Below the pieces are notes generated by a model. That model was not told the DNA's origin, ran no database searches, and was given only the letters and a program-made list of their open reading frames with translations. From an uncultured Arenicella sp. (lineage in GTDB: Bacteria; Pseudomonadota; Gammaproteobacteria; Arenicellales; Arenicellaceae): a stretch of DNA of 64,000 nt. A program made the translations under genes and the position numbers. Shown piece by piece: positions 49,954-54,685 of the stretch. The DNA lies in NCBI GenBank assembly GCA_937973905.1, contig CALJJR010000001.1:1-64000 (forward strand), written 5' to 3'. Within the stretch, counting starts at the first letter, position 1. Each line of letters opens with the position of its first letter.

Positions 49954-50574
49954 GTGTCATTGATTATCCCTTTCTCTGAGGCCTGCGAACGCAATAAAGA
50001 CCCAATTCTTGACACCATTGCACCGTATTTGAGGGATGCCAAGCATGCCCTCGAGATCGGCACAGGAACAGCGCAACACGTTATTCACTTTGCAGCGGCC
50101 TCCCCCAATGTGCAATGGCAACCAAGCGACCAGAAGCACAATCTTGATGGCATTATTGCGCAACTGCGAACTCGGCCAACAACCAACATCCTCGCGCCGG
50201 TCGAGTTGGACGTTACCCGTCAACCATGGTTTGAAGATCAGAGAAAATTTGATTTGATCTACACCGCCAACACCCTGCATATCATGAGCTGGCCCGTCGT
50301 GGAGTCACTATTCGATGGATTGAGTAGCGCTATCACATCGTTAACCAAGGTGATCATTTATGGTCCCTTCAAGTTCGCGGGCAAACACACTAGCCCGAGT
50401 AATGCAGCTTTTGACGAGTCTCTCCGTTCTCGGGGTGTGGGTAGCGGCATTCGAGATTTTGAGGCCGTTGATCAGTTGGCTACCAACGCTGGCCTAGAAC
50501 TCGTTGCAACCGAACCTATGCCCGCCAACAACTTCTGCATCATCTGGAGAGCAAAGGTTGGTCAAACTGCTTGA
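49954..50574 (+). CDS. DUF938 (UPF0585) SAM-dependent methyltransferase-like protein
   Basis: 206 residues. MSLIIPFSEACERNKDPILDTIAPYL leads into a SAM-binding fold: motif I ALEIGTGTAQHVIHFA, WQPSDQKHNLDGI, and FDLIYTANTLHIMSW. This combination, with the later YGPFKFAGKHTSPSNAAFDESLRSR, is the DUF938 family, conserved from bacteria to animals and of unknown function. GTG start. The trp leader and its likely promoter (TTGACC at 50571) begin at the very end of this gene. Confidence 0.88.
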   Translation: MSLIIPFSEACERNKDPILDTIAPYLRDAKHALEIGTGTAQHVIHFAAASPNVQWQPSDQKHNLDGIIAQLRTRPTTNILAPVELDVTRQPWFEDQRKFDLIYTANTLHIMSWPVVESLFDGLSSAITSLTKVIIYGPFKFAGKHTSPSNAAFDESLRSRGVGSGIRDFEAVDQLATNAGLELVATEPMPANNFCIIWRAKVGQTA

Positions 50575-50605
50575 CCTAGAGAGCTTCTAACGAGATCATT
50601 CCGTC

Positions 50606-50671
50606 ATGCATGACTTAACACACAACTGCCGGCTTAATTCACGTGGCCTTTGGCGTCGCTGGCGTCGCTAA
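50606..50671 (+). CDS. trpL: trp operon leader peptide (21 aa, two Trp codons)
   Basis: Reads MHDLTHNCRLNSRGLWRRWRR and stops at TAA. The two Trp codons come from a perfect tandem repeat TGGCGTCGC TGGCGTCGC just before the stop. Length, position 100 bp before trpE and the downstream alternative hairpins are those of an attenuation leader. Too short for the ORF track. The Shine-Dalgarno is weak (cgagat). A possible promoter is TTGACC (50571) with GATCAT 17 bp later. Confidence 0.75.
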   Translation: MHDLTHNCRLNSRGLWRRWRR

Positions 50672-50678
50672 TCCGTGC

Positions 50679-50758
50679 GGGCAGCTTTGCCCATCCAATT
50701 TGTGTTAACGCAGCGATCTTTGTTTCCCTTGCTGCAGCGTTCTAAACAACGCTTTTAT
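50679..50758 (+). promoter_or_regulatory. trp attenuator with alternative hairpins
   Basis: A pause-type hairpin GGGCA-GCTT-TGCCC (50679-50692) follows the leader stop. Region 2, AACGCAGCGA (50707-50716), can pair with the Trp-codon segment TCGCTGGCGT (50656-50665; one bulge) or with region 3, GCTGCAGCGTT (50731-50741). Region 3 also pairs with region 4: AGCGTT-CTAAAC-AACGCT (50736-50753) followed by TTTT, a terminator. Stalling at the Trp codons would free region 2 to hold region 3 and allow read-through to trpE at 50772. The terminator is modest and the T-run short. Confidence 0.65.
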
Positions 50759-50771
50759 CTTCGCCAGCATT

Positions 50772-52289
50772 ATGACCTCATCTTTTTCTCCAGCACCTTT
50801 TACTGATCAGCACAGTTTTGAGCAGTACGCCGATTCAGTTCGGCCACAGGGCATTACTCACATTCCCGTTGTTCGCGAAACTCTCGCAGATTTAGACACG
50901 CCCGTAAGCACCTATTTGAAGCTGGCGGACAAACCCTACAGCTATCTATTCGAATCAGTCCAGGGCGGTAACAAGTGGGGGCGCTATTCGATCATTGGCT
51001 TGCCATGCCGAAAGGTCTATCGGTATGAAAACGGGCAATTGAGCGTAGAAATCAGCGGCGAAATATCCGAAACGATAAAATCTGATGCGCCTCTAGAGCT
51101 CATCACCGAACTGCGAGATCAGTATCAGGTTGCTGAGTATCCTGGGCTCCCAGAAATGACCGGCGGCTTGGTCGGTTATTTTGGCTACGAGACAATAGGT
51201 CATATGGAACCCCGTCTGGCCAAGGAGAGTAAGGTCGACACGCTTGGCACTCCAGACATTATGCTCTTGCTGTCAGAAGAGGTTTTAGTATTCGATAACT
51301 TATCTGGGCGAATTTACATTGTGTGTTTAGCGGCAATCAACGCTCCAGATGCCTATCAAACCGCTCAGGCCCGATTGTCAGAGATTGAGACATCTCTTGC
51401 GCACACTCAGCTGAATCATCAGAACCCAGCAAGCTCTGCGCCAAGCGAATACAAAGTGCATTTTTCCCAAACGGATTTTGAAGCAGCGGTAGAGCGATGT
51501 CGCGATTACATTCGAGATGGCGATATTATGCAGGTGGTACTGTCGCAACGCTTGAGCACGGAATTCGATGGTAAAGCCTTAGATGTCTATCGTGCCTTAC
51601 GCACCATCAACCCATCACCCTATATGTACTTTCTAAATATGGGTGAGTTCGAGATAGTGGGTTCGTCGCCCGAGATTTTGGTTCGGTTGGAAAACAGTAA
51701 GGTCACCGTAAGGCCGATCGCCGGTACTAGAAAGCGCGGCGCGACCGAGCTTCGCGATCAGGAGCTTGAACACGAATTACTCAACGATCAAAAAGAAATC
51801 GCCGAGCACGTTATGCTGATAGATCTTGGGCGCAATGATGTAGGTCGAATTGCCAACACAGGCACAGTCGAATTAACTGAGCGCATGTTGATCGAACGAT
51901 ACTCGCACGTCATGCATATTGTCTCGAATGTAGAAGGTCAACTCAGAGAAGGCCTTGATGCTATGGACGTACTAAAAGCCACCTTCCCAGCCGGGACGGT
52001 AAGCGGCGCACCGAAAATCAGAGCCATGGAGATCATCCATGAACTGGAGCCAATTAAGCGTGGCGTGTATTCAGGCGCGGTAGGGTATTTAGGATGGCAC
52101 GGGAACATGGATACGGCGATCGCTATTAGAACGGCCGTAATTAAGGATGGTCAACTGAGCATTCAAGCCGGTGCAGGAATCGTCGCAGATTCGGTTCCCG
52201 AGTATGAATGGAACGAAACAATGAGTAAGGCGCGAGTAATGCTCAAGGCCGTGGAAATTGCGCAAAATAAAATGGGGGTATCTCGCTAA
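50772..52289 (+). CDS. trpE: anthranilate synthase component I
   Basis: Converts chorismate plus ammonia to anthranilate; first step of tryptophan synthesis. 505 residues. The N-terminal half carries the tryptophan feedback site ([21 protein letters not shown], the LLES-type motif with Ser). The C-terminal chorismate-binding domain has [52 protein letters not shown], and [17 protein letters not shown]. Stop overlaps the trpG start by one base (TAATG). Controlled by the leader upstream. Confidence 0.97.
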
Positions 52290-52852
52290 TGTTAGTGATG
52301 ATTGATAACTACGACTCTTTTACCTATAACCTCGTGCAGTATTTGGGCGAGTTGGGTGAAGAAGTAAAAACATTTCGCAACGATGAAATCGATGTGGATG
52401 AAATAGCCGCCTTAAACCCCGATAAATTAATGGTCTCGCCGGGGCCATGTACGCCTAAGGAAGCTGGCATTTCGGTTGCAGCAATCGAGAAGTTTGCTGG
52501 TGTCATCCCCGTACTCGGTGTTTGCTTAGGACATCAATGCATAGGTCAACATTTTGGTGGCGATGTCATTCATGCCAAACAAATCATGCATGGTAAAACT
52601 TCGGTGATGAATCACACCGGAGTCGGTGTGTTTGCCGGCCTACCGGACCCTTATACGATCACCCGCTATCATTCGCTGGTGGTTGATCGATCAACACTGC
52701 CAGATTGCTTGGAGATCACCGCTTGGACGGACGATGGAGAGATCATGGGCTTACGTCACAAAGAGCTTGCTATTGAGGGCGTACAATTTCACCCTGAATC
52801 CATTCTCACTGAGCACGGCCACGCACTCCTGAAAAATTTCTTAACACAATGA
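52289..52852 (+). CDS. trpG: anthranilate synthase component II (glutamine amidotransferase)
   Basis: Provides ammonia from glutamine to TrpE. 187 residues, a class I amidotransferase: [33 protein letters not shown], the nucleophile Cys in [13 protein letters not shown], and the His-Glu pair in [13 protein letters not shown]. It is a stand-alone TrpG, not fused to TrpD as in E. coli. It may also serve PabB. Overlaps trpE by one base and trpD by four (ATGA). Confidence 0.96.
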
Positions 52853-53874
52853 ATATTCAACAAGCTATCGCAACGGTTATTGATGGTCAAAACCTTAGCC
52901 GTGAACAAATGCAAACGGTAATGCAGCAACTAATGACCGGTGAGTGCACACCAGCACAGATCGGCGGCTTGCTGATCGGTTTGCGCATGAAAGGCGAAAC
53001 AGTGGATGAAATAACTGCCGCCGCTGAAGTGATGTCGCAACTTGCCGACCGTGTATCGGTTTCAACCCAACCGTTGATCGATATTGTTGGTACCGGTGGC
53101 GATGGCACGAGCACCTTCAATGTATCTACGGCCGCAGCGTTTGTCGCAGCGGGAGCCGGAGCTAAAGTTGCAAAACACGGCAACCGATCAGTGTCATCCA
53201 AATCTGGCAGCGCAGATTTATTGGAATGCGCAGGCGCTAATTTGAACCTGAAAGCGGACGATGTGGCTCAAGTGATAGAGCAGGCAGGGGTTGGTTTTAT
53301 GTTCGCCCCGATGCACCATAGCGCCATGAAGCACGCAATTGGGCCACGCAAGGAAATGGCGGTGCGCACTATCTTTAATGTGTTAGGGCCGTTGACCAAT
53401 CCAGCTGGTGTGCAACGCCAGGTTATTGGCGTATTTGCCGAACCCCTCCTAGAGCCCTTAGCCGCTGTACTCGGTAATCTTGGCAGCAAACACGCTTTAG
53501 TTGTTCGCGGTGAAGATGGCATGGATGAGCTCAGTGTTTGCGCCCCCTCGCAAATTGCCGAGTTTCAAGATGGCAAGGTAAAACGCTACTCGGTTACACC
53601 TGCTGAGGTGGGTTTGAGCACTTGGGCAATAGAAGAATTAGTTGCCGACGGCCCGCAGGAATCTTTACAACTCATCAATTCGGTGCTGGACGGCGAACAG
53701 GGCGCGCCCAGAGACATTGTGGCACTGAATGCAGGAGCTGGAATTTACGTGGCTGGCCTAGCTGAAAACCTTGCCGCCGGTGTTGAGAAAGCGCAAGAGT
53801 CAATCGATAGCGGGGCAGCAAAGTTGGCACGCGATAAATATGTTGCGGCAACAAAGAGGATCGGCGATGCATAA
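52849..53874 (+). CDS. trpD: anthranilate phosphoribosyltransferase
   Basis: Transfers phosphoribose from PRPP to anthranilate. 341 residues. The PRPP/anthranilate site motifs are present: [66 protein letters not shown] and [15 protein letters not shown], plus [10 protein letters not shown]. Start overlaps the trpG stop; its own stop overlaps the trpC start by eight bases. Monofunctional. Confidence 0.97.
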
Positions 53875-54685
53875 GGTCGTTGCCACAGGGTCTAATGCGC
53901 TTGATCAAATCATGCAACACAAAGCGCAAGAGGTCGCGCATGCGAAGTCGAAAGTCCCGATCAATGAAGTGCGGGCTATAGCTGACGATACCGAAGCAAC
54001 CCGTGGGTTTTCTGCAGCCTTAGCAAATAAGGCGAGACAAGCCAAGAGCGCAGTCATCGCCGAAATCAAAAAGGCCTCGCCCAGCAAAGGCGTTATTCGA
54101 GCGCAATTTGACCCAGTGGAAATTACCGAAAGCTATTCAGAATATGGCGCGACGTGTCTATCCGTGCTTACTGATCACGAGTTTTTTCAAGGGTCAGCTG
54201 ACTTCTTTAAAGCCTCCAGAGCAGTTACCCCTCTGCCAATGTTGCGCAAAGATTTTATGCTTGATGATTATCAAGTATTCGAAGCAAGAGCCATGGGAGC
54301 AGATGCCATTTTGCTGATCGTTGCGGCACTGGAAGACAGTTTAATGTTCGACCTAGCAGGGCGTGCACAAGAACTGAAGATGGACGTACTGGTAGAAGTG
54401 CACAATGCTGATGAGCTCGAACGCGGGTTGCAAATAGGCGCACCGCTGATTGGTGTTAATAATCGCAATCTGCAAACGTTTGAGACCGACCTAGCAACAA
54501 CGTTATCGTTGCTACCGTCGATCCCTGCTGACGTAACCGTGGTGACCGAAAGCGGAATACATACGCAAGATGATATTGCGCGGATGCAAGCGCATGGTAT
54601 TCATACTTTTTTGGTTGGCGAAGCGTTTATGCGCGCCGACAATCCCGGCAAGAAAATGGCCGAACTGTTTATAAACCTTAGCTAA
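53867..54685 (+). CDS. trpC: indole-3-glycerol phosphate synthase
   Basis: Ring-closing step of tryptophan synthesis. 272 residues, monofunctional (no TrpF domain). TIM barrel: SAVIAEIKKASPSKGVIRAQFDP (catalytic Lys), GATCLSVLTDHEFFQGS, PMLRKDFMLDDYQVFEARAMGADAILLIVA, GVNNRNLQTFETDL, VTESGIHTQDDI. The ORF track starts at 53771 inside trpD; the ATG at 53867 has AGAGGA seven bases upstream and overlaps the trpD stop. trpF, trpB and trpA are not in the window, so the pathway is split as in Pseudomonas. Confidence 0.96.
   Translation: MHKVVATGSNALDQIMQHKAQEVAHAKSKVPINEVRAIADDTEATRGFSAALANKARQAKSAVIAEIKKASPSKGVIRAQFDPVEITESYSEYGATCLSVLTDHEFFQGSADFFKASRAVTPLPMLRKDFMLDDYQVFEARAMGADAILLIVAALEDSLMFDLAGRAQELKMDVLVEVHNADELERGLQIGAPLIGVNNRNLQTFETDLATTLSLLPSIPADVTVVTESGIHTQDDIARMQAHGIHTFLVGEAFMRADNPGKKMAELFINLS

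Follow-up and report, generated by a model that had tools for sequence, protein, structure and literature searches.

Transcription attenuation is commonly taught with the trp leader as its standard example, and the locus studied here raises the question of how a short, tryptophan-containing open reading frame (ORF) in front of trpE acts in an uncultured Arenicella sp., and whether its output is termination of transcription. Within the window, by which we mean the whole stretch of 64,000 nucleotides that was analysed, we found a short ORF with clustered Trp codons directly 5' of the tryptophan biosynthesis genes. Its stop codon lies 100 nt from the trpE ATG (50772), and the genes follow in the order trpE, trpG, trpD, trpC as assigned by NCBIfam, with rpe and a gene for a DUF938 protein upstream. 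The features are these:

50606 to 50671, forward strand: trp leader ORF of 21 codons encoding MHDLTHNCRLNSRGLWRRWRR and a stop, read from the sequence.
50651 to 50668, forward strand: two tandem TGGCGTCGC units with Trp codons 16 and 19 (50651-50653 and 50660-50662), from the sequence.
50772 to 52289, forward strand: trpE, anthranilate synthase component I (NCBIfam TIGR00564, 563.8 bits, over the cut-off).
52289 to 54685, forward strand: trpG (TIGR00566), trpD (TIGR01245) and trpC (NF001373), all NCBIfam matches over the cut-off.

The tandem units are exact 9-nt repeats, one around each Trp codon, and the original prediction, made from the letters of this stretch, was right about the leader ORF and its distance from trpE, the duplication that carries both Trp codons and the order of the four genes.

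We next compared the leader among relatives, sampling 18 genomes for the genus, 21 for the family and 109 for the order. A leader with a C-terminal W-R-x-W-R or a close variant (WRSWRR, WRRWQG, WWRWRS, WHSWRS, WRGWPS) was found 5' of trpE in 16 of the 17 same-genus genomes, and the 17th, L037 (G016), has a shortened leader, with a premature TGA after SWRS and one Trp codon kept. Since the motif is present in 16 of 17 genomes and a shortened version in the last, the period-9 W-R-x-W-R is ancestral in the genus. Beyond the genus, leaders with W-rich C-termini also stand 5' of trpE in both other genera of the family, and families f2 and f9 have them too. The conservation of the leader and its Trp codons across genus, family and order strongly supports its identity as a trp leader peptide, and we hold its tryptophan-sensing role with high confidence. 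The codon duplication and the C-terminal position, which had been called unusual, are ordinary for the lineage, as seen in the 16 genus leaders and in E. coli trpL, whose Trp codons likewise lie near its stop. In the TrpE tree, the long branch of the window leaves from the base of its genus, which is unresolved, and the closest TrpE sequence shares about 70% identity. An Arg codon (CGN) directly follows Trp in nearly all leaders of the order, as WRxWR here and as WWR in E. coli trpL, for which the context of stalling or base pairing of TGGCG may be the reason. Elsewhere in the order, short ORFs with Trp codons occur in other families (e.g. L052, L057, L085), but these are far from trpE or within the upstream gene and were dropped as chance occurrences. 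The repressor TrpR (PF01371) was not found in the 21 genomes searched, with controls detected and the window's genome being 89% complete.

Upon scanning for promoter patterns, we identified one element:

50571 to 50599, forward strand: promoter TTGACC-N17-GATCAT, from a pattern scan and recurring in relatives.

This is likely to be the promoter, because the element TTGAC-N17-[AG]AT[CT]AT recurs at the equivalent place 5' of the leader ORF in most same-genus relatives. The predicted transcript start falls at about 50605-50607, approximately 6-7 nt past the -10 element, and about 50606 is the A of the leader AUG. The leader ORF of the window is therefore probably leaderless, with a transcript beginning at the AUG, as predicted from the promoter spacing only. 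In L037 the gap from the -10 element to the ATG is 6 nt, as in the window; in most other genus members the leader AUG is separated from the -10 element by 15-50 nt. The window and L037, in which the promoter abuts the AUG, also lack a small hairpin (GAGG...CCTC or GGGG...CCCC type) that most genus relatives (L024-L031) carry about 10-30 nt 5' of the leader ATG, followed by a U-rich stretch directly before the AUG.

Among the explanations of how this sensor is read out, the strongest rival to the one that we favour below is classical transcription attenuation, which the original prediction had assumed. In it, a stalled ribosome would lead to an antiterminator and otherwise the hairpin at 50736-50757 would terminate transcription. 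In its favour, a Trp leader ORF stands at a suitable distance, mutually complementary segments are present, and a hairpin precedes TTTATCTT. Two structures bear on it:

50736 to 50757, forward strand: weak terminator-like hairpin AGCGTT-CTAAAC-AACGCT (stem-loop 50736-50753) followed by TTTA (TTTATC), private to this genome and at chance level.
50710 to 50735, forward strand: helix B, GCAGCGA (50710-50716) with TTGCTGC (50729-50735), forming in all simulated ribosome positions.

The letters of the proposed terminator are present, but the structure does not behave as one. It has 6 bp and −5.2 kcal/mol, one terminator-like hairpin was found versus 0.6 ± 0.7 expected from shuffles, and its terminator score (d'Aubenton-Carafa's) is −30 to −26 compared with +38 for the E. 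coli trp attenuator, whose hairpin is present in NC_000913. None of the 36 leaders of the order scores above zero as an intrinsic terminator, and the hairpin of the window has no counterpart in relatives. Folding of the leader region, which had been suggested as a check, gave an unremarkable total energy (z = −1.04). The proposed antiterminator segments, AACGCAGC and GCTGCAGCGTT, do exist, but their pairing has near-zero probability in the folded window leader; GCAGCGA pairs with TTGCTGC instead, so that helix B takes the place of the AACGCAGC:GCTGCAGCGTT pairing, and it abuts the hairpin without overlap or competition. A GCAGC/GCTGC-type stem stands at the place of helix B in most genus relatives.

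At equilibrium the window hairpin forms with P of about 0.998 in all states, and the same is true of E. coli trpL, with P near 1 in every state; equilibrium folding therefore does not count against transcription attenuation. Being uninformative as a test of a terminator switch, it was replaced by a nascent-RNA test, in which the RNA is truncated before the 3' arm of the hairpin and E. coli trpL serves as positive control. The control switches fully: its terminator arm is occupied to about 1.0 as long as the ribosome sits on one or the other Trp codon, and to 0.05 once the stop has been reached. In the window there is no clean ribosome switch (about 0.87 and 0.73 at the Trp codons and 0.65 at the stop), and hence no stall-dependent antiterminator by this test. 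Additionally, Rfam searches matched no leader family, either across the window at the gathering threshold or within 50300-50900 with E <= 5 allowed. Overall, we regard transcription attenuation at this locus as unlikely, and the classical logic that had been proposed is not upheld. We also considered whether the U-rich tract preceding helix B in relatives of the genus is a terminator tail, and rejected this because the tract is the 3' arm of the covarying helix A described below.

The lineage instead displays complementarity between the leader and the trpE ribosome-binding site (RBS). In the genus, leader codons 1-5 (ATGCAATATTACTT) are complementary to the trpE RBS (GAGTAATTATTGCC-ATG), in f2 the leader start TCATCATTGGG pairs with the RBS CCCGGTGATGA, and in f9 (L078) the leader start GAATTCATCAT pairs with the RBS ATGATGAATTC. 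The first 33 nt of the leader match the trpE RBS at p <= 0.05 in 20 of 36 leaders (dinucleotide shuffles; Fisher 1e-15, a combined p that is too small because the sequences are related), and three control regions were null in the same test. When cognate arms were compared with swapped arms across 23 leaders, 0 of 20,000 permutations were as good. Furthermore, in a 10-bp leader-start:RBS helix followed through 12 divergent leaders, with arms registered by hand, 94% of cells are paired, and five pairs and 13 cells are changed on both sides (0 of 500 shuffles for the doubly changed cells), and the signal is lost on sliding the arms. MAFFT alignments of whole leaders misregistered the pairing arms and were therefore left out of the counting. 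A conserved, covarying pairing between leader and downstream RBS is thus found for the lineage. In L037, strong leader-start:trpE pairing persists (GCAAAATTAC with GTAATTTTTGC) despite the premature stop.

A second helix is shared by the window:

50615 to 50622, forward strand: helix A 5' arm TTAACACA, inside the leader ORF, 8 bp with 50701-50708.
50701 to 50708, forward strand: helix A 3' arm TGTGTTAA, from folding and an arm-swap test.

Helix A joins mid-leader codons with the U-rich tract before helix B, and cognate arms surpass swapped ones among 10 genus members including the window (p = 0.0005). The comparison with relatives that the original prediction called for thus sustains the leader and a covarying stem, helix A, and not the terminator-like hairpin.

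We then modelled a ribosome with a footprint of about 31 nt and the first Trp codon in its A site, and calculated the cost of opening the trpE start region. For about half of the 24 leaders examined, mainly outside the genus, the model predicts that a stall there makes the RBS 4-12 kcal/mol cheaper to open. In nine leaders (L042, L045, L046, L047, L049, L060, L074, L078, L079) the opening cost is predicted to fall from 12-18 to 4.6-8.7 kcal/mol, for example from 15.7 to 4.6 in L046, 17.9 to 6.0 in L060, 14.4 to 6.5 in L079 and 13.1 to 5.2 in L042, and with the ribosome at the stop codon the trpE start of these nine stays mostly closed (10-18 kcal/mol). The effect differs from that of shuffled intergenic sequence (combined p 1e-8, related sequences being combined). 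Opening by a stall and not by completion is thus predicted in many f2, f9 and g3 leaders, and is weak or lacking among most members of the window's genus, where one ribosome stalled at Trp fails to open the RBS in the model and a second, queued or initiating ribosome is predicted to open it. For E. coli trpL the cost is 3.0 kcal/mol in all states, with no stall effect.

These results point to translational attenuation. Across the order, the trpE RBS would be held closed by pairing with the opening codons of the leader. With charged tRNA-Trp plentiful, the ribosome would complete the leader and depart, and the pairing would form; a ribosome stalled at the first Trp codon would open the RBS. The conservation of the leader, the covarying complementarity, the Trp codon position and the predicted opening on stall in many relatives come from computation; that the ribosome stalls, that translation is lost in the paired state and that a physiological effect follows is inferred. 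The predicted translational output has good support in the lineage and moderate support for this genome.

The window departs from its relatives in several respects. Its leader-start:trpE RBS pairing is absent (p = 0.31, shuffle test), its trpE start lacks the GAGTAATTATTGCC ribosome-binding context of relatives, and the whole leader ORF against the trpE start is not significant in duplex-energy shuffles (p about 0.2). A different pair of segments was found here by folding and the opening-cost model:

50658 to 50664, forward strand: GCTGGCG around the second Trp codon, candidate sequestering arm, 7 bp with 50762-50768.
50762 to 50768, forward strand: CGCCAGC, 3 nt before the trpE start codon, partner of GCTGGCG.

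GCTGGCG:CGCCAGC has P = 0.91 in the free leader RNA, with a chance p of 0.10 for a 7-base run. The trpE start is fairly open even when the leader is free, at a cost of 3.8 kcal/mol, which falls to 2.2 and 1.9 with stalled ribosomes, on paper a change of about 13- to 22-fold (opening effect of the stall, p = 0.07). With the ribosome at the stop codon the cost is 1.8, as low as in the stalled states, and therefore only the ribosome-free leader of the window is closed. It is thus suggestive only, and for this genome only, that the segment of the second Trp codon may pair with the trpE start region, in which case a stalled ribosome would free the pairing near the trpE ATG. The window is a diverged member of the lineage that has kept the leader and the covarying helix A and lost the start-region pairing.

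A divergence of this kind could also mean that the attenuator is decaying or has been replaced in this genome: the leader peptide would still be conserved, with neither a good terminator nor good sequestration left, and trpE would be regulated weakly or otherwise, e.g. by Rho or RNA decay. Both switch tests, of nascent RNA and of RBS opening, are weak for the window, the GAGTAATTATTGCC context has been lost at its trpE, and the long branch at the base of the genus fits as well; against drift, however, the exact Trp repeat, the conserved promoter and the covarying helix A have all been kept, and we consider decay or replacement improbable, still more so than transcription attenuation. Another reading of the leader-start:RBS complementarity, very hard to believe, is that RNA pairing plays no part in it and that it reflects a need for codons resembling an anti-Shine-Dalgarno sequence, or for a conserved peptide. 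Many leaders do open with Ile-Ile/Thr codons (ATCATCAC) that match the trpE Shine-Dalgarno sequence and also the 3' end of 16S rRNA, but the pairing runs past the Shine-Dalgarno sequence with compensatory changes (L075, L065, L078, L040) and the sequences of the window's genus are wholly different yet complementary.

We therefore favour, with somewhat better than even confidence, a Trp-sensing leader ORF that belongs to a family found throughout the lineage and acts mainly on translation, the window being a diverged member in which the arm may have moved. A more far-reaching version remains tentative and is probably too strong: order-wide translational attenuation of trpE would use the leader ORF's own 5' end as the anti-RBS arm, kept by compensatory change, and in the window this arm would have moved onto the Trp codons, so that the sensor would be the sequestering bases.

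When set beside known systems, the leader shares with E. coli and enterobacterial trpL a short Trp-codon ORF directly 5' of trpE and the position of the ribosome as sensor, whereas E. coli trpL has a strong terminator, a clean nascent switch and no leader-start:trpE RBS pairing, and the lineage studied here is the reverse. Translational attenuation by leader peptides is established for ermC-type macrolide resistance leaders. In mycobacteria, cysteine-responsive, poly-Cys leaderless leader ORFs are described (Canestrari et al. 2020, as cited in PMC13236596). Both resemble the proposed mechanism in that a stalled leader ribosome opens a downstream RBS closed by RNA pairing; here, in contrast, the signal would be Trp-tRNA in a trp operon, and the sequestering arm would be the 5' end of the leader ORF with the sensing codons directly after it. 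Leaderless trpL is reported in Sinorhizobium meliloti (PMC7298713) and Streptomyces lividans (PMC8079986), with a transcript start at or near the leader AUG as predicted for the window, but these are described as transcription attenuators with terminators. The translational T-box 5' of ileS in Actinobacteria (PMC1262725) likewise has amino-acid-dependent Shine-Dalgarno sequestration, but there a tRNA-binding RNA does the sensing and no leader ORF takes part, and the window locus has no Rfam match.

In a literature search for which most subscription papers were beyond reach, we found no report of sequestration of the trpE RBS by the start region of the trp leader itself. Leader-start sequestration in the lineage would be a new variation on ribosome-mediated attenuation, of which the window would be a divergent case. 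If the trp sensor is coupled to a translational output in this lineage, sensor and output would be separable modules, and a Trp-rich leader with any hairpin 5' of trpE should not be taken as a terminator-type attenuator. Four outgroup leaders (L046, L060, L078, L079), whose leader:RBS helices are long and covary, bring the model within direct reach of simple reporters.

Two minor observations concern the neighbouring genes. The trpC ORF as listed (53771-54685) has a TTG start inside trpD, and the true trpC start probably lies further downstream, at the onset of the family match (residue about 42). The gene for the DUF938 protein (window 49954-50574) lies between rpe and trp, apparently likewise in L036 and L037; the upstream neighbour in other relatives is rpe (L024) or a Gph-like phosphatase gene (f2), and in f2 the trp promoter sits within the 3' end of that gene.
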